Assembly (NCBI GenBank): GCA_024743255.1
Contig: JANSWY010000019.1
Span: 1 to 64,000, forward strand
From: a bacterium
GTDB taxonomy: Bacteria > Bacteroidota > Bacteroidia > Cytophagales > Cyclobacteriaceae
Reading direction: 5' to 3'
Length of the DNA stretch: 64,000 nucleotides
Shown here: piece after piece, positions 49,225 through 57,784 of the stretch
Numbering within the stretch: position 1 is the stretch's first letter
How the letters are laid out: each line of letters opens with the position of its first letter
Program-made: the position numbers and the translations under genes
The notes under the pieces: model-generated
What the model saw: only the letters and a program-made list of their open reading frames with translations
Databases searched by the model: none
Told to the model about the DNA's origin: nothing

Positions 49225-52200
49225 TTGAATAACCTAAATCTACCAGCGGTGATAGAACCCGATATTCCTAAAAATGAAGAACAAAGGCTTAATGCCTTAA
49301 AAGAGTACCAGGTACTTGACACTCTTCCAGAGCAACTCTACGATGATATCACCCTCCTTGCATCCCAAATTTGCAATACTCCTATTTCATTAATCAGTTT
49401 AATAGATGACAGCAGGCAATGGTTTAAGTCTCATCATGGTCTGGGTGTAGACCACACTCCCAAAAACATCGCATATTGTGCGCATGCAATCAATGAACCG
49501 GAGAAACTAATGGAGGTTGAGGATGCTCTGAAGGACGAACGGTTTCATGATAACCCATTAGCAACTGGAGAGCCTTTCGTGAGATTTTATGCAGGAATGC
49601 CCCTTGTGGATGAAAATGGTTTTGCCTTAGGTACCCTTTGTGTAATCGATCATAAGCCTAGAAAACTAAATGATTCTCAGAAGGAATCATTAAGAGCTTT
49701 ATCTAGACAGGTTCTTGCTCTATTAAAACTTCGTGTAGAGAGCAACAAAAAACAAGATGCCTTTGATGAATTTATAGGATTAGTTGAGAACCTGGGTGAT
49801 GGAGTATTCGAATTAGATGAACATGGTAAATGTAGCTATGCAAATGCTACCATGCTTAAATTCTTAAATAGAGATATAGATGAAGTCATGCATACCTCAA
49901 TTTGGGATATGATCTATCATGAAGATGTTCCAAGTATGCAGGCATTTTATGCTGATCAATTCAGGAATAAGAGAACAAAGTGCTATTACGAGTACCGCAT
50001 TGCTCCCAAGAACGAAGATCCAATTTGGTTAGCTCAAACCACTACTATGACCTATGAAGGAGATACTATGGTTCGATTGAGATCGATTTCCAGAAATCTT
50101 TCAGAAACAAAGGAACTTGAAATTGAGCTGGAGGAGAAAGACCAATTATATAGACTTGTTAGCGAGAATTCATCAGACCTGATCGCGTTACATGAGCCAA
50201 ATGGCCTTTACAGATTTGTGGCCCCTTCATCCATTGACCTGGTAGGATATAAACCTTCCGAGCTGATTGGGAAAAATCCATATGACTATATACATCCAGA
50301 TGATCGTTCCAGACTGATGTCGGGACCTCATCAAGAAACTTTAAAAGGCGGTAAAGCTTCAAATATTGAATACCGTTTTAAAGCAAAGTCTGGGGAATAT
50401 ATTTGGCTCGAATCCTATACGAAACCAATAATAAATAATAAAGGAGAAGTCACTTCATTTCAGACAAGCTCCAGGGACATTACTGAGAAAAAAAGAGAGT
50501 ATGAAAGAAACCTGCAGTATAGAGTAGGCTTGAAACTTCTGAATGAATTGTCAGCAAGCCCTACAAGTGAACATCTTGTTTCTAAAGCATTGCAGAAAGC
50601 AACGAATCACCTCAGTCTTTCAAACGCATTGATCGTATTGAAGAATCGTGCAGATAAGCTCGAATGGATTTATTTCTTTGGAGGCAGAGATAAAAAAAAG
50701 ATTCAACTTCCTCAAATCGTAGAATCAGAATTAATCTCGGAGATAATTTCCTCCTCATCTATAAGAAGCTATTATTCTCAAAGCCAAATTACACTTCCAT
50801 TTACTAAAACCAAAGTGAAAAAATTAATTGGCTCAAGGATTCTGAGAAGTGGGAAATCTACTGGTGCAGTTTGTATTTGGTCGGATTCTGAAGATGAGGC
50901 ATTCCCAGCCCAGGACAAGGCATTCGCTCTTCTATTCGCAAATTGGTTGGGAGCATCACTGGAAACACTTGAAGATCGTAAACAACTTTTGGAAGCTAAG
51001 GTAATCGCAGAATCCGCTAATGCTGCCAAGTCCGACTTCCTTTCAATGATGTCTCATGAAATCAGAACACCATTGAATGGTATCATTGGAACTACTCATT
51101 TACTATTAAACAAGTCTCCTCAAAAAGAGCTGTTACCATATTTCGACATTCTTCAACAAAGTAGTAATAACCTCTTAGCCATAGTCAATGACATACTTGA
51201 TTTCAATAAAATACAAGAAGGTAAAGTACACCTGGAGTCCATCAATTTTGATTTAAAAAAACTGATTGAAAACATATTGAAGAACTATGTAATTCCAGCA
51301 GAAGAGAAACATTTGAAATTAAACTGTGAGTATGATCAAAACCTCCATAAATTCTATTGGGGAGACTCAGTGAGAATTAGTCAGGTACTACATAACCTGG
51401 TAAGTAATGCAATCAAGTTTACAAGTGAAGGTTCTATCACCATTAAAACCACAGCCGGACAAACTCTAGACTCATTTCAGGAAGTTAGCTTCGAGGTAAT
51501 CGATACTGGAATTGGAATTCCAAAAGATAGACAAAATGAAATTTTTGACAAGTTCACACAGGCTAGCTCAAGCACTTCAAGAGAGTACGGAGGTTCTGGT
51601 TTAGGCTTAACGATTACAAAGAACCTGTTAAGCATGATGGGTTCTGAAATCAAATTATTAAGTGAACCAGGATCTGGATCAGCTTTTTCCTTCACACTTG
51701 TGCTTAAGATCTCCGAGGAAGAAACCATTCAAGAGGAAACTTTCGAAAATCTCCAATTAATGGGAACTGTGTTAATTGTGGAAGATAATGCATTCAATAG
51801 AATCATTGCAAAGGACTTCCTGGAAGCCTGGGGATGTCGGACAATAGAAGCTGAAAATGGTGAAGAATGCCTGGAGGTGTTAAAATCAGAAAAAGCGGAT
51901 TTGATTTTAATGGATTTACAAATGCCAGTACTAGACGGGTTTGAAACATCAAAGGCGATCAGAGCCTCAGATGATCTTCATGAAATTCCAATTGTAGCAC
52001 TTACCGCAGAAGTTATAGGAGATGTTAAAGAGAAAGTTTATGAACACCAAATGAATGATTATATCACCAAACCTTTTCATCCGACAGAATTCTTTAAAAA
52101 AGTGCAAAAGCATTTAAAATTCAAACAGGGCTCAACCAACAATAACTTGGTTTCTGCCGTGCTGAATAAATTGAAGAAAACACTGGGAGACGATCATGAT

Positions 52201-52485
52201 GTAGTTATGAAATATTATGATATCTTTATTAAAGCAACAGAGGAAGAGAAGGACAAACTTGGTGGGCTAATTGACAAGGAAGATATTTCGGCAATACGAT
52301 CCTATGTTCATAAGGTGAAATCGAGTTTTCAGTTGGCTGGACTAAAAGATTTGACACAGGAAGCTCTTGAAATTGAGCGGCTAATTGATGAAGGTGGTGC
52401 TAAAAATATAATTCTGGAACATTTGCTTAGGCATAATGAAAATCTGGGAGCAACATTAGAATTACTAAAGGAATCCAATGAGTGA
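49225..52485 (+). CDS. hybrid histidine kinase: GAF-PAS-PAS-GAF-HisKA-HATPase-REC-HPt
   Basis: The 1086 residues have no membrane helix, so this is a cytoplasmic sensor. Order: GAF domain (about 15-170, opening EEQRLNALKEYQVLDTLP), two PAS domains (about 180-310 and 315-440), a diverged second GAF (about 440-590), HisKA with His611 in SHEIRTPLNGIIG, HATPase (VSNAIKFTSEG; DTGIGIPKDR; GGSGLGLTITKNL), receiver with Asp897 in LILMDLQMPVLDG, and HPt with His1029 in SYVHKVKSSFQ. The signal therefore passes His611 to Asp897 to His1029 to an external receiver, probably the LytTR regulator whose gene overlaps by 8 bp. TTG start. Ligand unknown. Confidence 0.95.
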   Translation: MNNLNLPAVIEPDIPKNEEQRLNALKEYQVLDTLPEQLYDDITLLASQICNTPISLISLIDDSRQWFKSHHGLGVDHTPKNIAYCAHAINEPEKLMEVEDALKDERFHDNPLATGEPFVRFYAGMPLVDENGFALGTLCVIDHKPRKLNDSQKESLRALSRQVLALLKLRVESNKKQDAFDEFIGLVENLGDGVFELDEHGKCSYANATMLKFLNRDIDEVMHTSIWDMIYHEDVPSMQAFYADQFRNKRTKCYYEYRIAPKNEDPIWLAQTTTMTYEGDTMVRLRSISRNLSETKELEIELEEKDQLYRLVSENSSDLIALHEPNGLYRFVAPSSIDLVGYKPSELIGKNPYDYIHPDDRSRLMSGPHQETLKGGKASNIEYRFKAKSGEYIWLESYTKPIINNKGEVTSFQTSSRDITEKKREYERNLQYRVGLKLLNELSASPTSEHLVSKALQKATNHLSLSNALIVLKNRADKLEWIYFFGGRDKKKIQLPQIVESELISEIISSSSIRSYYSQSQITLPFTKTKVKKLIGSRILRSGKSTGAVCIWSDSEDEAFPAQDKAFALLFANWLGASLETLEDRKQLLEAKVIAESANAAKSDFLSMMSHEIRTPLNGIIGTTHLLLNKSPQKELLPYFDILQQSSNNLLAIVNDILDFNKIQEGKVHLESINFDLKKLIENILKNYVIPAEEKHLKLNCEYDQNLHKFYWGDSVRISQVLHNLVSNAIKFTSEGSITIKTTAGQTLDSFQEVSFEVIDTGIGIPKDRQNEIFDKFTQASSSTSREYGGSGLGLTITKNLLSMMGSEIKLLSEPGSGSAFSFTLVLKISEEETIQEETFENLQLMGTVLIVEDNAFNRIIAKDFLEAWGCRTIEAENGEECLEVLKSEKADLILMDLQMPVLDGFETSKAIRASDDLHEIPIVALTAEVIGDVKEKVYEHQMNDYITKPFHPTEFFKKVQKHLKFKQGSTNNNLVSAVLNKLKKTLGDDHDVVMKYYDIFIKATEEEKDKLGGLIDKEDISAIRSYVHKVKSSFQLAGLKDLTQEALEIERLIDEGGAKNIILEHLLRHNENLGATLELLKESNE

Positions 52486-53176
52486 TAAAAAATTGGAAGT
52501 CATTATTGTAGATGACGAAAGGTTTCAATTAGAGGTACTAGCCTCTTTTGTGAAGAAAACAGCATTTCTGGAACTAGTAGGATCTTTTACTAATCCTGTT
52601 GAGGCGCTGGATAATATCATTGGCAATCAACCAGATTTGTTACTTCTTGATGTAGAGATGCCGGAACTAACTGGTTTAGAACTTATAAAATCTCTAAAAA
52701 ACCCTCCAAAAACCATCGTGGTAACTGGCAAAAAGGAATATGCCGTTGAAGCATTTGATCTTGATGTTGTTGATTATCTGGTAAAGCCCGTAGATGATTA
52801 CTCAAGGTTTTTGAAAGCTGTTTCCAAAGTCAAAGAAAGCGTTCCTCCTACTGAAAGAAAAAAGATTTCGGATAGTATATATATTAGAGAAGATTCTTTA
52901 TTGGTCAGTATTAATTTAAGTGACGTTCTTTATTTCGAAGCGTCAGGGGATTATGTGAAAATTGGCACAGACGACAAACTTAGAGTAACCCACTCTACGC
53001 TTTCTAAGATTGAAAAGAAGCTACCAAAAGAATTTTTCAAAGTTCATAGATCTTATATCGTCAACCTTAACAAAATCAAGAACATTGATCAGACCAATTT
53101 ACAGGTTGGAGATAAAATCATACCTATCAGCCAATCTATGAAACCAAAGCTGATGGCGCAAATCGATACATTCTAG
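52478..53176 (+). CDS. LytTR-family response regulator
   Basis: The 232-residue protein has a receiver (VIIVDDERFQLEVL; phospho-acceptor Asp58 in LLLLDVEMPEL; Lys in VDYLVKPV) and a C-terminal LytTR DNA-binding domain (SIYIREDSLLVSINLSDVL; FKVHRSYIVNLNKIKNI). It overlaps the hybrid kinase by 8 bp and is its likely target. LytTR proteins bind paired direct repeats near promoters and usually activate. A second LytTR gene (56577-57302) lies 3.4 kb away in a different operon. Confidence 0.95.
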   Translation: MSDKKLEVIIVDDERFQLEVLASFVKKTAFLELVGSFTNPVEALDNIIGNQPDLLLLDVEMPELTGLELIKSLKNPPKTIVVTGKKEYAVEAFDLDVVDYLVKPVDDYSRFLKAVSKVKESVPPTERKKISDSIYIREDSLLVSINLSDVLYFEASGDYVKIGTDDKLRVTHSTLSKIEKKLPKEFFKVHRSYIVNLNKIKNIDQTNLQVGDKIIPISQSMKPKLMAQIDTF

Positions 53177-53291
53177 TTTCCGTTAAACTTCAGTTATTTA
53201 TAATCCAGCGTCGAATTTCATTAGTCTAGCGAAAGTAGTCTAAACATGACATCCTTATTGAGGATATTACTTAAAACTACTGCGTAAACAC

Positions 53292-53636
53292 TTGAAAACT
53301 CTAAGCTGTCTCATATTAGATCCAAATAACTTCACTTCTGTCCTTTTGGAAGAATTCGTTGAAAAAACTCCGGAATTAGAAATATTAATTGATGACATCA
53401 ATGTTTCCAGACCACATTTGGTATTTGTGGATTCAGAATATTACAATGAGGATATTTTCAGGAAATTCGAAAGCGATTCAATCATTGTCATCTCATCGGA
53501 AGAAGAATTGGTTCGATCTTACTTCAAGAATGATATCCTTGATTTTGTAATGAAAGAAGATTTAAGCTATAATCGCTTTTTGAGCGCTGTGACCAAATAT
53601 AGGTCCAGACAAAAAAATAAGGCAGAGAACCTGTAG
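53292..53636 (+). CDS. degenerate stand-alone receiver, paralogue of the adjacent regulator's receiver
   Basis: The 114 residues align end to end with the receiver of the upstream LytTR regulator, including the tail (SYNRFLSAVTKYR here, DYSRFLKAVSKVK there). The phospho-acceptor Asp47 (LVFVDSEYY) and switch Lys88 (FVMKEDL) are kept, but the acidic pocket pair is reduced to Asp-Pro (LILDPNN), the usual Lys-Pro is Lys-Glu, and about six residues before the phospho-site strand are lost. No output domain follows. TTG start; it is separated by 115 bp from the regulator. It may be a phosphate sink, a pseudo-receiver binding a partner, or a decaying duplicate. Confidence 0.7.
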   Translation: MKTLSCLILDPNNFTSVLLEEFVEKTPELEILIDDINVSRPHLVFVDSEYYNEDIFRKFESDSIIVISSEEELVRSYFKNDILDFVMKEDLSYNRFLSAVTKYRSRQKNKAENL

Positions 53637-53751: not shown

Positions 53752-54564
53752 CTAGGATTGGTTCACATGTACATCCATTTGTGGATATGGAATATTGATT
53801 CCGCTTTCGGTAAATGTTTTAAGGACCTTTTCATTCATATCGAAAAATACTCCCCAATAATCCGGTGCATTAACCCAGGCTCTCACTACAAAGTTTACTG
53901 AGCTGTCAGCCAATTCGGATACCGCAATAAAAACTGCAGGATCTTTTAAAATTCTTTCATCTTGGTCGCAAAGATTTTGCAGGGTGGATTTAGCCTTATC
54001 TACATCATCAGAATAACCAATTCCGAATGTCCAATCTACTCTACGTCTCTCCTCTGTGGAATAGTTAGTCATTGATGAGGTAGAAAGACCTCCGTTTGGA
54101 ATAATAATTGTCTTATTATCCGGTGTTTTCAGGATTGTGTTGAACAATTGGATCTCAGACACACTGCCAATATAACCTTGTGCATCGATCACATCTCCTA
54201 CTTTGAAAGGTCGAAAAATCAAAATCATCACACCCCCTGCAAAATTTTGTAGTGTTCCTGATAAGGCCATACCAATAGCCAAACCAGCTGCTCCCAAAAT
54301 CGCAATAAATGATGTCATCTCTATACCCAGCATTCCAAGTACACTGATTACCAATAGTACTTTCAATAGAGTGCCTACCATTCCTTTAAAGAAAGGCTTT
54401 AAAGACGCATCTGTATTTCTTTTGTCAAGCATTGATCCAAAGGCCCTGGTGATTCCCTTGACAATCCAAAGTCCAATGATCAATACAATAATTGCTCCGA
54501 CTAGTTTCGGTCCATAAGCGAGGATGAACTTCCATCCTTCGTCCATTAGTTTTTCGTAATCCAT
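53752..54564 (-). CDS. small-conductance mechanosensitive channel (MscS family)
   Basis: The 270-residue protein has three membrane helices followed by the MscS beta domain: GAAGLAIGMALSGTLQNFAGG is the pore helix region, FRPFKVGDVIDAQGYIGSV and TPDNKTIIIPNGGLS are the canonical cytoplasmic motifs. Length and layout match E. coli MscS. It opens with membrane tension to release solutes on osmotic downshock. It lies 149 bp downstream of, and in the same direction as, the PG-binding end of the GTPase operon; cotranscription is possible but not shown. Confidence 0.95.
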   Translation of the reverse strand: MDYEKLMDEGWKFILAYGPKLVGAIIVLIIGLWIVKGITRAFGSMLDKRNTDASLKPFFKGMVGTLLKVLLVISVLGMLGIEMTSFIAILGAAGLAIGMALSGTLQNFAGGVMILIFRPFKVGDVIDAQGYIGSVSEIQLFNTILKTPDNKTIIIPNGGLSTSSMTNYSTEERRRVDWTFGIGYSDDVDKAKSTLQNLCDQDERILKDPAVFIAVSELADSSVNFVVRAWVNAPDYWGVFFDMNEKVLKTFTESGINIPYPQMDVHVNQS

Positions 54565-54713: not shown

Positions 54714-55340
54714 TCAGAATAGTTTAGAATAGGTTTCCTCATCTAAAGTTCCACTTGGAAACAATCCATTATCAGTTTGAAATGTTTGTAGAGTAACCTG
54801 GGTATCTATCCTGAAGTTTCCATCCACTGGAGTATCATACCCTTTCTCGTTTAGCTTTTGCTGAAGCTTCCATACATTGGAACTGATGTCTCCAAATTGG
54901 GTCGTCAACATATCTTGCATCTGCTTTCTTCTTTCGTACTCTGTAGCTGAAATTCCACTTTCAATAATTTCCTTGATCACCACATTGTTATACCCCTGTT
55001 TTTTCAGGCTGTAAGAATAATTCAGTTGCTTCTCCAGTTGTTTGGTAACAGCTCTCAAGTTATTAAAATGACTGGTTGCTTTGAGAGACTTTTCGTTTTC
55101 GGATGGATACAAAACATCAATTCCTTCATTCTTCCACATTCTCCGAGCGAAAGCCCCTATTTCGTAAGAGTTTTGATAGTACAATGTCAATGCTTGTTGG
55201 TCATAGAAATTAATGTCAACCGAATCAGATTGCACATAATCATAGCTGTTTGGAGGATTGAATTTCGTCCAATTTACATATTGGAAGTACGCAATAACTG
55301 GTAATGCAATTATGATTACTATGTATAAAAGCCTTTTCAC
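54714..55340 (-). CDS. membrane-anchored peptidoglycan-binding protein
   Basis: The 208-residue protein has an N-terminal helix (LLYIVIIIALPVIAYFQYV) that may be an uncleaved anchor, a helical region (about 60-145), and a C-terminal PG_binding_1-type domain (about 150-208; VWKLQQKLNEKGYDTPVDG and QTFQTDNGLFPSGTLDEETY). Its start overlaps the stop of the Roadblock-like gene (ATGA), so both products should be made in proportion. It is the last gene of the GTPase operon. The design suggests a link between the inner membrane and the cell wall. Confidence 0.75.
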   Translation of the reverse strand: MKRLLYIVIIIALPVIAYFQYVNWTKFNPPNSYDYVQSDSVDINFYDQQALTLYYQNSYEIGAFARRMWKNEGIDVLYPSENEKSLKATSHFNNLRAVTKQLEKQLNYSYSLKKQGYNNVVIKEIIESGISATEYERRKQMQDMLTTQFGDISSNVWKLQQKLNEKGYDTPVDGNFRIDTQVTLQTFQTDNGLFPSGTLDEETYSKLF

Positions 55341-56167
55341 TGCTCTATTTTATTCAGGTTAGCAAAATATTCTTCTAGCTTGTGCTTATATGTTTCTTCA
55401 TTCATGTTATCAGCAGCTTTAATAGTGAGTTCCTTCACAAAGCTCATAATGGTATCATCAAGCTTAGATTTGAACTCTGAGGTAAATACCCCTGAAAGCA
55501 CTACTGCAACATAAAATTTATGGAAATTCTGAATGTAGATTTTGTATAAGTCGTACTCGATTGTCTCAAGAGATTGATTTTCCTTTTCGAATGCTTCACC
55601 CACAAACGACTTGATAGCCGTTAACATTCCAGCAATTATATCCTGGTCCATGGTCTTATTTCTGGAATAGCTCGCAAGCAAAAGACCTGAATCATTCTCA
55701 ATAAGAAATATCTCTTCTATTTGGGGCTCAACCGCATCTCGGATTAATTGTCCACCTGGCTTTTTACCGGTAAATAAAGAGGTGATGTAAGCCTTGATTC
55801 GCTCCCACGAAAAAACCTGATCAAACTGCTGATCAATTCTATCAGAAAGTAATTGAATTTCCTTCTGAATATACTTCTTGATCATTTGACCAATAATTGG
55901 ATAAAGTACCTGTACTACTTCATCCCTTGATTCTTTAATTTGAGTTTGGAGGGTTTTTGTAATGGCAGGGCCAAGTCGTTCTGGCATGATTTCGGTGATA
56001 TGATCCACCAGCTGTTCCACCTCGTCCTCTGGAATTTTAAGGTTCTCAAAGTCATCAGCAACTTTCCCCTGAAATTCCTGAAACTTCTCTTCTAATTGAG
56101 CAAACTTCTTGCTTTCTTCCTCAAAGAGAAGATGCTTTAAAGTATTTATGCCTCCCTCCTGAGACAT
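55337..56167 (-). CDS. helical protein with C-terminal Roadblock/LC7-like domain
   Basis: The 276 residues are soluble. The first 145 are long, charged helices (EEESKKFAQLEEKFQEFQ; IGQMIKKYIQKEIQLLSDR); residues about 150-250 fit a Roadblock/LC7-longin-like pattern: IFLIENDSGLLLASYSRN, a helix MLTAIKSFVGEAFEK, then strands ETIEYDLYKIYI and FYVAVVLSG, then a helix. Roadblock proteins such as MglB act as GAPs or scaffolds for small GTPases, and a Ras-like GTPase is in the same operon. From memory, similar regions may occur fused to OmpA-type domains elsewhere; here the wall-binding part is a separate, overlapping gene. Assignment is tentative. Confidence 0.6.
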   Translation of the reverse strand: MSQEGGINTLKHLLFEEESKKFAQLEEKFQEFQGKVADDFENLKIPEDEVEQLVDHITEIMPERLGPAITKTLQTQIKESRDEVVQVLYPIIGQMIKKYIQKEIQLLSDRIDQQFDQVFSWERIKAYITSLFTGKKPGGQLIRDAVEPQIEEIFLIENDSGLLLASYSRNKTMDQDIIAGMLTAIKSFVGEAFEKENQSLETIEYDLYKIYIQNFHKFYVAVVLSGVFTSEFKSKLDDTIMSFVKELTIKAADNMNEETYKHKLEEYFANLNKIEQ

Positions 56168-56170
56168 CCC

Positions 56171-56545
56171 TTAATTATCTGATTGAAGTTTTCTACCAAT
56201 CTCTTCCAAAAGGGCTCCCAGAGTATGCCGATCGGTTTTTTCATCACGAAGCTGATCAAGTTCCTGATTGACGTCTGAAGTCAAAGAATCCACTCTGGTA
56301 TCAAATTGTTTTCTAAGCTCTTCCACATGATCTTTTAAATCATCCATCTTGGAATCTATCGCTTTTTGGAGCTTTTGAAGATCTTTCTTTTGTTTCTCAT
56401 AGCGATCATCAAGTTCTTTCTTGAGCGTTTCGAACTTGTTCTCGTATTCCTGCATATCAGATCCGAAGATGATATCCCTGATAGCATTAATCTTTTGTAT
56501 TTCGTTGTTTGAGCTTTCTTCTTCTATATTCTCAGCTTTAGCCAT
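56171..56545 (-). CDS. coiled-coil protein of the GTPase operon
   Basis: This 124-residue soluble protein has a short N-terminal helix (EIQKINAIRDIIFGSDMQEY) and then a long charged coiled coil (about 40-108; KKDLQKLQKAIDSKMDDLKD), ending in TLGALLEEIGRKLQ. The C-terminal segment looks like a conserved contact site. It lies 31 bp after the LytTR gene and 3 bp before the Roadblock-like gene. The likely role is assembly or dimer bridging of the switch complex. No enzymatic motif. Confidence 0.65.
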   Translation of the reverse strand: MAKAENIEEESSNNEIQKINAIRDIIFGSDMQEYENKFETLKKELDDRYEKQKKDLQKLQKAIDSKMDDLKDHVEELRKQFDTRVDSLTSDVNQELDQLRDEKTDRHTLGALLEEIGRKLQSDN

Positions 56546-56576
56546 GATCTTTTTGAGATGTGTCCAACTAAAATAA

Positions 56577-57302
56577 TTAATTTAATTTCTTAATCCTCGA
56601 TAATAAGTCCTCTTTGTAGCTAAGACTTATAGGAAGGATGGTATCCTTTATCTGCAGTTTCTGTTGATTTAATGATATGATCTGATCAATTCTAACAATG
56701 TACGATCTGTGAATCCTGACAAAGTCCTTCTGGGGAAGAATGTCTTCCATGCTTCTTAGCTTGGTGTAAGAAACATAAAATTGATCTGCTGTATGAATTT
56801 TGATGTAGTCACCAAACGCTTCAATATATTGGATGTCCTGAGGTTTGAAGTTCAGTAACAGGGAATCAACTTTGATAAAAATGTTTTCAGCTTCTGGAAT
56901 CTTTTTCAAAGCCTCAATTTCTTCATTTTCCTTAGCGATTGCATCCACATTTCTATCCTGCTGTAATTCCAACACCTTTTGGTATTGCGGTGTAAATTCT
57001 TCAACCAGAAATAGTATTGAATCATCGCCTTTATCCTGCTTCACAAAAAAGGTAAAATCGAAGAATCTGCCTGTTCCAAAGTAGTCAATTTGTATACAGT
57101 TGAAGGTTAGATTATCTCTGGTCTTTAATGTTTCAAGGGGTTCTCGGATTGAAGAGAGAAAGGAGATTTCTTCAAATAGATCAACTCCCTTTTCTATTTT
57201 GAGGATTTCATCTGTTGAATCAATCAATTTCCCAGACCTATCAAACTGAATAAGTTGGGTCATATGATCAACTAACTTTATTTTCTCCTCATGCAGACTC
57301 AT
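56577..57302 (-). CDS. LytTR DNA-binding protein with PAS-like N-terminus and no receiver
   Basis: The 241 residues have a PAS-like N-terminus (about 10-105; LIQFDRSGKLIDSTDEIL; RFFDFTFFVKQ), a helical linker (about 106-138) and a LytTR domain (about 141-240; NIFIKVDSLLLNFKPQDIQYIEAF; VRIHRSYIVRIDQIISLNQQ). There is no receiver domain, so it is not controlled by phosphorylation in the normal way. It overlaps the GTPase gene by 4 bp (ATGA), so the GTPase or a PAS ligand may control it. It is the only DNA-binding protein of the operon. Confidence 0.85.
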   Translation of the reverse strand: MSLHEEKIKLVDHMTQLIQFDRSGKLIDSTDEILKIEKGVDLFEEISFLSSIREPLETLKTRDNLTFNCIQIDYFGTGRFFDFTFFVKQDKGDDSILFLVEEFTPQYQKVLELQQDRNVDAIAKENEEIEALKKIPEAENIFIKVDSLLLNFKPQDIQYIEAFGDYIKIHTADQFYVSYTKLRSMEDILPQKDFVRIHRSYIVRIDQIISLNQQKLQIKDTILPISLSYKEDLLSRIKKLN

Positions 57303-57784
57303 TGAAGCATTTCTTTTGTAAGGTTTGTAAAAGCGGTCTCAACATTTTCTCCAGTTTTGGCACTTGTGAAAAGTACTTCTGAGAAGTCCAGCTCTTTTGT
57401 TAAATCTGATTTCATTGATTCAGTTAACATATCGCTTTTATTAGCCAGCTTAACCAAAGGGGCGTCTGGTAAGGTCATTCTCAACTCGGAAATGTGTTGA
57501 TCTAAATCTTTATATGTAGTGGGCCTTGTTACGTCAAATACATATAGTATTCCATGTGCACCAAGCTTATAGGAAGATGGAATTTTTTTCATAGCGTCCT
57601 CACCTGCTATATCCCACAACACTATATTAACTTCTTTCTGATCCACTGTTACTACTTTCTTATCAATCTTGACTCCTATAGTCGTCAGATAACTGTCAGA
57701 AAATTTCTGATGAACAAACTGCCTTACCAGGGAGGTTTTTCCCACCCCGAAATGTCCGACCAGAATAACTTTTTTATTAATCAT
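57299..57784 (-). CDS. Ras/Rab-like small GTPase
   Basis: ATG 57784 gives 161 residues (INKKVILVGHFGVGKTSLVR); an upstream TTG adds seven residues. All five G motifs are present: G1 GHFGVGKT (10-17), G2 Thr35 in LTTIGV, G3 DIAGE (58-62), G4 NKSD (115-118) and G5 TSAKTG (140-145). The order and switch sequences resemble eukaryotic Rab proteins (TIGV; WDIAGE). Two positions that matter in Ras hydrolysis differ: Gly12 is Phe and Gln61 is Glu. It leads an operon with LytTR, coiled-coil, Roadblock-like and wall-binding proteins. It lacks a prenylation motif. Confidence 0.93.
   Translation of the reverse strand: MINKKVILVGHFGVGKTSLVRQFVHQKFSDSYLTTIGVKIDKKVVTVDQKEVNIVLWDIAGEDAMKKIPSSYKLGAHGILYVFDVTRPTTYKDLDQHISELRMTLPDAPLVKLANKSDMLTESMKSDLTKELDFSEVLFTSAKTGENVETAFTNLTKEMLQ

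Follow-up and report, generated by a model that had tools for sequence, protein, structure and literature searches.

The window analyzed here is a 64,000-nucleotide stretch of DNA from a bacterium of the Cyclobacteriaceae (Bacteroidota; GenBank assembly GCA_024743255.1, contig JANSWY010000019.1, positions 1 to 64,000 of the forward strand). It carries a five-gene operon (P0001 to P0005) that, judged from its sequences, represents the Group 1 Rup GTPase system in a Bacteroidota form; the assignment is based on gene neighborhood and on pairwise and profile comparison with the GTPases of Mesorhizobium and Nostoc. We consider it fairly probable that this is a signaling operon in which the state of the envelope is passed through a longin-domain protein to the GTPase and from there to an effector that joins a PAS domain to a LytTR DNA-binding domain. 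More tentatively, and with slightly less than even confidence, we propose that the operon pairs a true bacterial longin with a Rab/Ras/Rho-like GTPase and that a two-component step has been cut out, with the switch acting directly on a transcription factor. Conservation of the module, the PAS domain held in common with the kinases of sister operons, the single clade formed by loci of the LytTR layout, the relationship of their LytTR domains to the response regulators of those kinases, and the fusion of longin and wall-binding parts elsewhere are computed results, while control running from the GTPase through the PAS domain to LytTR is what we infer. All five reading frames lie on the minus strand with spacings of −4, 31, 3, and −4 bp, and their co-directional arrangement is as the initial annotation had described it (lengths in amino acids [aa]):

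P0001, 57299..57784, minus strand: 161 aa, Rab/Ras-like small GTPase of the Group 1 Rup type
P0002, 56577..57302, minus strand: 241 aa, effector with an N-terminal PAS domain, a helix, and a C-terminal LytTR domain
P0003, 56171..56545, minus strand: 124 aa, cytoplasmic coiled-coil protein, part of the conserved core of Group 1 Rup loci
P0004, 55337..56167, minus strand: 276 aa, predicted longin-domain protein, proposed platform or guanine nucleotide exchange factor (GEF) for the GTPase
P0005, 54714..55340, minus strand: 208 aa, GTG start, N-terminal membrane anchor, C-terminal PG_binding_1 domain

P0001 matches the Pfam family Ras (3.1e-34) with motifs G1 to G5 present, as had been claimed from the letters, and it is the only match in the genome above the Roc cut-off. 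Its closest sequences in the PDB are Rab1, Rab14, and Sec4 (best E value 2.6e-26), and it is 43% identical to a Mesorhizobium "Rab family GTPase" and 40% identical to the Nostoc counterpart. It has the size and motifs by which Group 1 Rup proteins are defined: a single domain, fewer than 240 aa, motifs G1 to G5, and the G3 Asp. This residue, Asp58, is present in 95/95 aligned distinct GTPases, and the G4 and G5 residues are conserved. The position equivalent to Ras residue 12 holds Phe in 82 of these proteins, P0001 among them, and Tyr in 13, while the Gln61 position, Glu62 in P0001, is Glu in 39, Asn in 27, and Gln in only 9 (non-Gln in 86). By inference from Ras, so large a side chain at position 12 should get in the way of an arginine finger, which is in line with a nonstandard mechanism of hydrolysis.

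Conservation of the module was assessed in two sets of loci. Of 148 genomes from the family, 18, among them the window's own, encode a P0004 relative. Each of the 17 further loci has close to that gene a GTPase, a coiled coil, and an output protein sharing its N-terminal domain with P0002. A wall-binding gene is near in 16 of the 17, with none in L026; the coiled-coil and wall-binding genes are 2 to 3 kb away in L030 and L033; in L025 and L038 the effector is divided between frames. A scan of named genomes, from which 80 loci were kept out of at least 463 relatives (some being the same genomes as those of the 17 loci), found coiled coil, P0004, GTPase, and N-domain protein together in 76/80; of the exceptions, three had no coiled-coil match and one, on a short contig, had no N-domain match. 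The check on co-conservation that had been called for found the core kept in 17/17 and 76/80 loci. The wall-binding gene was close by in 26 of the 80, and it had no profile match in 14 Flavobacteriaceae loci with upstream genes listed. At class level, 12 of 395 genomes, again including the window's own, encode a P0004 protein.

The module occurs in two layouts. The LytTR layout, in the order GTPase, effector-LytTR, coiled coil, P0004, and wall-binding protein, was seen in seven loci, those of the window and of six relatives (G048, G060, G035, G164, G184, and G072). The effector of G072 (L025:8067-8833) consists of overlapping N-domain and LytTR frames, either a real split or a sequencing error. 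The kinase-type layout of 13 other loci of the first set runs (wall-binding), coiled coil, P0004, GTPase, and kinase-sized effector, followed in 8/13 by a response regulator of the REC-LytTR type. Among the 80 named loci, the GTPase follows P0004 in 77 and the window's layout is found in 3. Five kinase-type effectors were scanned with Pfam; HisKA and HATPase were matched in all five, the HisKA match of L028 falling slightly below its cut-off, and a receiver in four. The LytTR output named by the initial annotation holds for this locus, while most relatives have a kinase-sized output, those scanned being kinases or, in Mesorhizobium, a cyclase. Three Flavobacteriaceae operons (L074, L095, and L109) have a second GTPase gene, and their N-domain protein is about 200 aa long; that of L074, the only one of the three scanned, gave no Pfam match.

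The effector P0002 had been described as a LytTR protein without a receiver. A LytTR protein does occupy the effector's place (about residues 137-235; Pfam 1.1e-17, 64.5 bits versus a cut-off of 22.6), and a conserved N-terminal PAS domain is present as well. An AlphaFold2 model with a mean predicted local distance difference test score (pLDDT) of 93.7 divides the protein into PAS (about 1-103), a helix (104-134), and LytTR (about 137-235). In fold comparison, the PAS domain matched PYP (Z 11.2), with FixL and LOV also among its matches, and the LytTR domain matched 3d6w (Z 15.2) and AgrA (Z 13.7). A profile of the N-terminal domain (N-domain) found nothing significant among PDB sequences; the PAS assignment comes from the fold.

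The N-domain is shared between the two layouts. The N termini of effectors from 15 loci, 3 of the LytTR and 12 of the kinase type, align with the first part of P0002, and a search with the domain matched 47 of 390 genomes at family level and 38 of 390 at order level, the window's own being in both. Judged by frame length and neighbors, 7 of the 47 family genomes, from four genera, have the LytTR layout, and none of the 28 order genomes from outside the family showed a frame of 240 to 280 aa. Across the 47 alignment rows only Gln16 and Gln115 are invariant, the latter within a QxRN motif of helix 104-134 (Gln115 in 47/47, Arg or Lys at 117 in 47/47, and Asn118 in 46/47). Nine orphan N-domain proteins, from genomes of two genera that gave no GTPase-profile match at 1e-10 (two of the nine match the domain only partly), all keep Gln16; QxRN at the helix start is found in 0/9, L163 having QSKN at residue 163, outside the domain. 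In G072, where the GTPase is present, QxRN is kept in one of two extra N-domain copies, and the copy in the incomplete genome G118 (60%) keeps Gln115 and not QxRN. As a correlation over few lineages, this points to Gln115 and QxRN as the part tied to the GTPase. Two N-domain proteins in genomes without a GTPase match, L151 (455 aa) and L156 (421 aa), gave no Pfam kinase match and only Hpt, respectively.

Tree analyses bear on the origin of the LytTR form. A 40-row tree of P0004 and GTPase sequences places the seven loci of the LytTR layout in one clade (support 100/99). In a LytTR-domain tree of 54 rows, the domains of these loci lie within a 28-row branch (starred; support 96/84) that also holds 8 response regulators encoded after kinase effectors, 9 belonging to orphan loci, two further paralogues from the window's genome, and the regulator encoded beside the operon (present twice, once as a paralogue row):

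REC-LytTR response regulator, 52478..53176, plus strand: neighbor gene, identified by Pfam and by its place in the LytTR tree

Paralogues had been entered as 29 rows drawn from the best 30 of the 62 LytTR matches in the genome, and 26 of the 29 fall outside the branch; the 62 matches themselves seem a large set. Since kinases of sister operons carry the same PAS domain and the LytTR domain groups with the response regulators of those kinases, the phosphorelay appears to have been cut out. On a plain reading of the sequences, a pathway from kinase to response regulator would have lost its phosphorelay, with the effector domain joined directly to the DNA-binding domain of the regulator, and the neighboring REC-LytTR gene may be a relic of the locus's two-component form. 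A point against this is that the seven effector LytTR domains are not one branch in the LytTR tree, where they require two changes; a constraint to one clade was not rejected (approximately unbiased test, P = 0.31).

P0004 contains the domain left unnamed in the 2014 survey of Group 1 Rup, and this domain is predicted to be a longin domain. P0004 itself has no significant Pfam match and no match to a longin family. An AlphaFold2 model (18 rows; best of five used) gives a helical N-terminal part and a domain at about 147-275 with the predicted topology bbabbbaa, which is the longin order of five strands and two C-terminal helices:

P0004 predicted elements (AlphaFold2): strands 149-157 and 163-168; helix 175-194; strands 202-205, 208-214, and 218-225; helices 230-250 and 257-268

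The best VIA match to the model was 4p6z_S, a clathrin-adaptor chain (Z 13.5, 119 aligned residues, 2.9 Å), and matches at Z 11 to 13.5 over about 114 to 132 residues included clathrin-adaptor chains, Sec22b, VAMP7, TRAPP, Mon1-Ccz1 (5ldd and 9rs7, Z 11.6 to 11.8), and Fuzzy. All 14 Foldseek matches with an E value of 0.001 or better came from adaptor, coatomer, Ragulator/Rag, or CPLANE complexes, whose matched chains are longin or Roadblock proteins. MglB, a representative of the related Roadblock fold, was not among the best 50 VIA matches, beyond which further matches may exist.

Profile searches, independent of the model, gave sub-threshold matches to longin families. When 41 single domains of the P0004 family were scanned against Pfam at E ≤ 1, the families most often matched were Fuz_longin_1 (FUZ/MON1/HPS1; 11/41, best 7.2e-4 and 20.2 bits versus a cut-off of 26.1, in L064) and Intu_longin_1 (INTU/CCZ1/HPS4; 5/41, best 4.7e-3 and 17.6 bits versus 23.7). 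Together with the Roadblock-type family MAPKK1_Int and with Sybindin, 13 of the 41 domains matched a longin or Roadblock-type family. Longin matches in full-length relatives coincide with the same region. Among eight distant domain pieces, a longin family ranked on top in two (L212, Fuz_longin_1, 0.038; L211, Clat_adaptor_s, 0.089) and in none of the remaining six. A Fuz_longin_1 search of 20 whole genomes returned 14 rows, none above cut-off, of which 4 were in the P0004-family gene and 10 elsewhere; the P0004-family row was the genome's only one in three genomes, and the four rows are not independent since they come from only three genera. The control genomes of E. coli, B. subtilis, and C. 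glutamicum also gave sub-threshold Fuz_longin_1 rows.

The Roadblock/LC7 family (PF03259) was rejected for P0004 by sequence, with matches at E ≤ 1 in 0 of the 41 domains and, among 8 Robl_LC7 rows in the 20 genomes, none in a P0004-family gene. The initial annotation had called P0004 Roadblock-like: a protein of the Roadblock/longin superfamily does accompany the GTPase, but it lacks a PF03259 match and models as a longin.

Several results weigh against the longin assignment. The mean pLDDT of the model is 65.3, and the other four models reached 53 to 57; within the domain, blocks over residues 151-270 are mostly at 71 to 86, with dips to 58 to 65. No longin or Roadblock-type family was matched at E ≤ 1 in 28 of the 41 domains, every longin match was below threshold, with none in P0004 itself, and unrelated families scored as well in single domains (TRAF_BIRC3_bd, 0.0079; Endonuc-BsobI, 0.0094). 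Profile searches of PDB sequences returned no significant longin, either with the whole family, where the top rows were coiled-coil matches to viral spike stalks and AP-4 sigma stood at 0.29, or with the domain alone, where the best match was a SAM lyase at 0.26.

The wider family links the predicted longin to the cell wall. P0005 matches PG_binding_1 above its cut-off (3.5e-10) and has an N-terminal hydrophobic stretch in its translation. A search with P0004 matched four plasmid records (Mesorhizobium, two of Rhizobium, and Nostoc) at 27 to 33% identity, and three of three plasmid loci examined had the order coiled coil, long P0004-like protein, GTPase, and output gene. In the long forms, the longin region and OmpA share one polypeptide in Mesorhizobium (L164, 1.6e-10), Nostoc (L165, 6.5e-8), and L209 (3.5e-8), with a weak OmpA match under the cut-off (0.006) in L208; L208 and L209 are loci from the window's class. 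A transmembrane stretch in the OmpA-fused proteins was read from the translation. These fusions bear out the wall link suggested earlier, and we propose P0005 as a stand-alone counterpart of the OmpA part. By Pfam, the Mesorhizobium output is a cyclase and the Nostoc output a hybrid kinase. P0003 gave solely coiled-coil-type sub-threshold matches among the best 25 of 65 Pfam families, and its relatives are found in the Mesorhizobium, Nostoc, and Rhizobium loci. The coiled-coil profile also matches longin proteins (L212, 1e-6; L159, 1e-4), a resemblance of P0003 to the P0004 N terminus by which the two may be paralogous docking segments.

Three findings limit how far the full pathway extends. 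The N-domain profile did not match the outputs of L164, L165, L166 (Rhizobium), L208, and L209, so the shared effector domain is established for only part of the family. Orphan N-domain proteins occur in genomes without a GTPase match, and the PAS domain may thus have functions of its own. Finally, with a wall-binding gene near only 26 of the 80 named loci, wall sensing is not core everywhere.

In the mechanism we favor, P0005 and the coiled coil would retain or free the longin protein depending on the state of the envelope. The longin protein, probably as a dimer, would serve as platform and exchange factor for the Rab-like GTPase, a role suggested by its fold, its place in the operon, and the precedent of Mon1-Ccz1 and MglB. 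The GTP-bound GTPase would dock on the effector at its PAS domain and QxRN helix, and docking would change the effector's dimer state and hence DNA binding by its LytTR domain. The invariant Gln of the effector may complete a GTPase active site that lacks one, in which case the effector would also end the signal; the idea of a trans-acting effector Gln was first raised, as speculation, for Group 1 Rup (PMC4316618).

Other explanations were weighed against this mechanism. That P0004 is an ordinary Roadblock/MglB-type domain acting as a GTPase-activating protein (GAP), on the plan of MglAB or the conservons, seems unlikely to us. Ragulator and Rag chains do occur among the Foldseek matches, and 1 of the 41 domains weakly matched MAPKK1_Int (0.025), a Roadblock-type family. 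Roadblock and longin are also related folds with a similar mode of GTPase binding (PMC3521125), and MfpD, a homologue of CvnB, is reported to be a GAP (PMC13343842). However, the model predicts an extra helix (257-268) past the last long helix, the top structural matches are longins, PF03259 is absent from all 41 domains and from this gene in all 20 genomes, and 0 of 121 Rup were coupled to MglB in the survey (PMC4316618). Somewhat less improbable, though still doubtful, is a longin that is only a scaffold at the membrane or wall, with the nucleotide cycle set by the effector's Gln in trans and by spontaneous exchange, and no GEF. The longins of SNAREs and adaptors are not known to be exchange factors, and the rarity of Gln at position 61 (non-Gln in 86/95) beside an invariant effector Gln115 would suit such a cycle. 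In kinase-type operons the genes for longin and GTPase mostly overlap or directly adjoin each other, which suggests direct partnership and does not separate scaffold from GEF.

The signal might also run in reverse, with the PAS domain sensing a ligand and setting the GTPase, the envelope proteins as output, and LytTR as a side branch or autoregulator. PAS domains are often ligand sensors, with PYP, FixL, and LOV among the matches here, and orphan PAS proteins exist where no GTPase was matched. We give this reading a slightly lower chance than the Roadblock one. The same domain heads histidine kinases and, in Mesorhizobium, a cyclase stands in the effector's place, though without a recognizable N-domain; outputs that vary around a constant core fit an effector role. 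Very improbable, finally, is a co-inherited cluster with no common pathway. Promoter and terminator scans of the operon found no more than shuffled sequences gave, and many relatives have no wall-binding gene nearby, yet in two gene orders the trio of coiled coil, longin, and GTPase is retained in Bacteroidota, Alphaproteobacteria, and Cyanobacteria, and longin is in some loci fused to OmpA.

Compared with described systems, the operon most resembles Group 1 Rup, predicted in silico in 2014 by Wuichet and Sogaard-Andersen (PMC4316618). As described there, the neighborhood comprises a Rab-like GTPase, a coiled coil, a protein with an unnamed domain, and an output protein, typically a diguanylate cyclase/phosphodiesterase or histidine kinase. 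Shared with the operon here are the Rab-like GTPase without the G3 Gln, the coiled coil, the unnamed-domain protein, often followed by a transmembrane segment and OmpA, and an output N-terminal region with an invariant Gln, which may be Gln16 or Gln115. A PAS-LytTR transcription factor as output and a separate PG_binding_1 wall protein distinguish the present operon from those described, and "LytTR" has 0 occurrences in the main text of PMC4316618. The initial annotation knew of no described system with a GTPase-gated LytTR regulator; the system as a whole had been described in silico in 2014. We propose the longin identity, the LytTR output, and the separate wall-binding half as additions to the survey. 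In the open literature searched, read in part, we found no publication that describes a longin within a bacterial operon, Rup or other, none on LytTR with the Ras superfamily, and none since 2015 on Rup with OmpA and diguanylate cyclase.

The Streptomyces conservons (CvnA-D), G protein systems of actinobacteria, likewise combine a small GTPase, a partner of the Roadblock/longin superfamily, and a kinase, the last found here in sister operons. They differ in their MglA-type CvnD, MglB-type Roadblock CvnB, and CvnC, with a domain of unknown function (PMC13343842, PMC4316618), and their four core genes, as described in these sources, include no coiled coil, wall-binding protein, or LytTR fusion. 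A conservon was rejected for the operon, with neither MglB-type CvnB nor DUF742 among the Pfam matches of P0001, P0002, P0004, and P0005, and no conservon family among the best 25 of 65 weak families of P0003. DUF742 is the domain of CvnC. Myxococcus MglA-MglB also pairs a Ras-superfamily GTPase with a Roadblock/longin-superfamily regulator but controls polarity and motility, and no PF03259 match was found in the operon here. MglA lacks the G3 Asp of other GTPases (PMC4316618), with Thr78 in MglA (PMC3000849), whereas P0001 keeps it. P0001 was therefore rejected as an MglA, given Asp58 in 95/95 and no PF03259 among the listed matches of the operon proteins or at the locus.

Mon1-Ccz1, Fuzzy-Inturned, BLOC-3, and TRAPP have longin domains too, several acting on Rab GTPases, while P0004 has a single predicted longin, a long helical N-terminal part, a place in a bacterial signaling operon, and sub-threshold matches. 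AgrA and ComE share the LytTR DNA-binding domain, but P0002 has PAS instead of a receiver and no phosphorylation domain.

Rup GTPases are called the group closest to Rab/Rho/Ras/Ran (PMC4915359), and as of 2014 no Rup GTPase had been characterized and their GAP was unknown (PMC4316618). Eukaryotic longins were proposed in 2012 to derive from prokaryotic MglB-type domains (PMC3521125), and a 2024 paper gives Archaea as the presumed source of the Roadblock/longin families and reports predicted longins in Asgard archaea (PMC10933270). The pairing of a Rab-like switch with a longin-fold partner is usually credited to eukaryotes and Asgard archaea. If our reading is true, the Rab-longin partnership of eukaryotic membrane traffic exists in bacteria as a module from envelope to transcription, either predating eukaryotes or independent of them. 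A longin in a Rup operon would supply a candidate Rup regulator and a tractable test of the age of the partnership, and the LytTR form would offer a one-step readout from GTPase to promoter for studying the switch.

Around the operon, the Bacteroidota −33/−7 promoter pattern matched only a single isolated −7-like site upstream in the window and had no match in six relatives. Genes for a hybrid histidine kinase, the REC-LytTR regulator, and a 114-aa protein converge on the operon (49225-53636, plus strand). Genes alike in kind and size adjoin the orphan N-domain proteins in L151-L157, the kinase and regulator being confirmed by Pfam in L156 only. On the operon's own strand, 149 bp 3′ of the P0005 gene, lies a gene for an MscS-type mechanosensitive channel (53752-54564, minus strand); the other 16 loci tested had no match to it, and an MscS gene is present within the relative locus L030.

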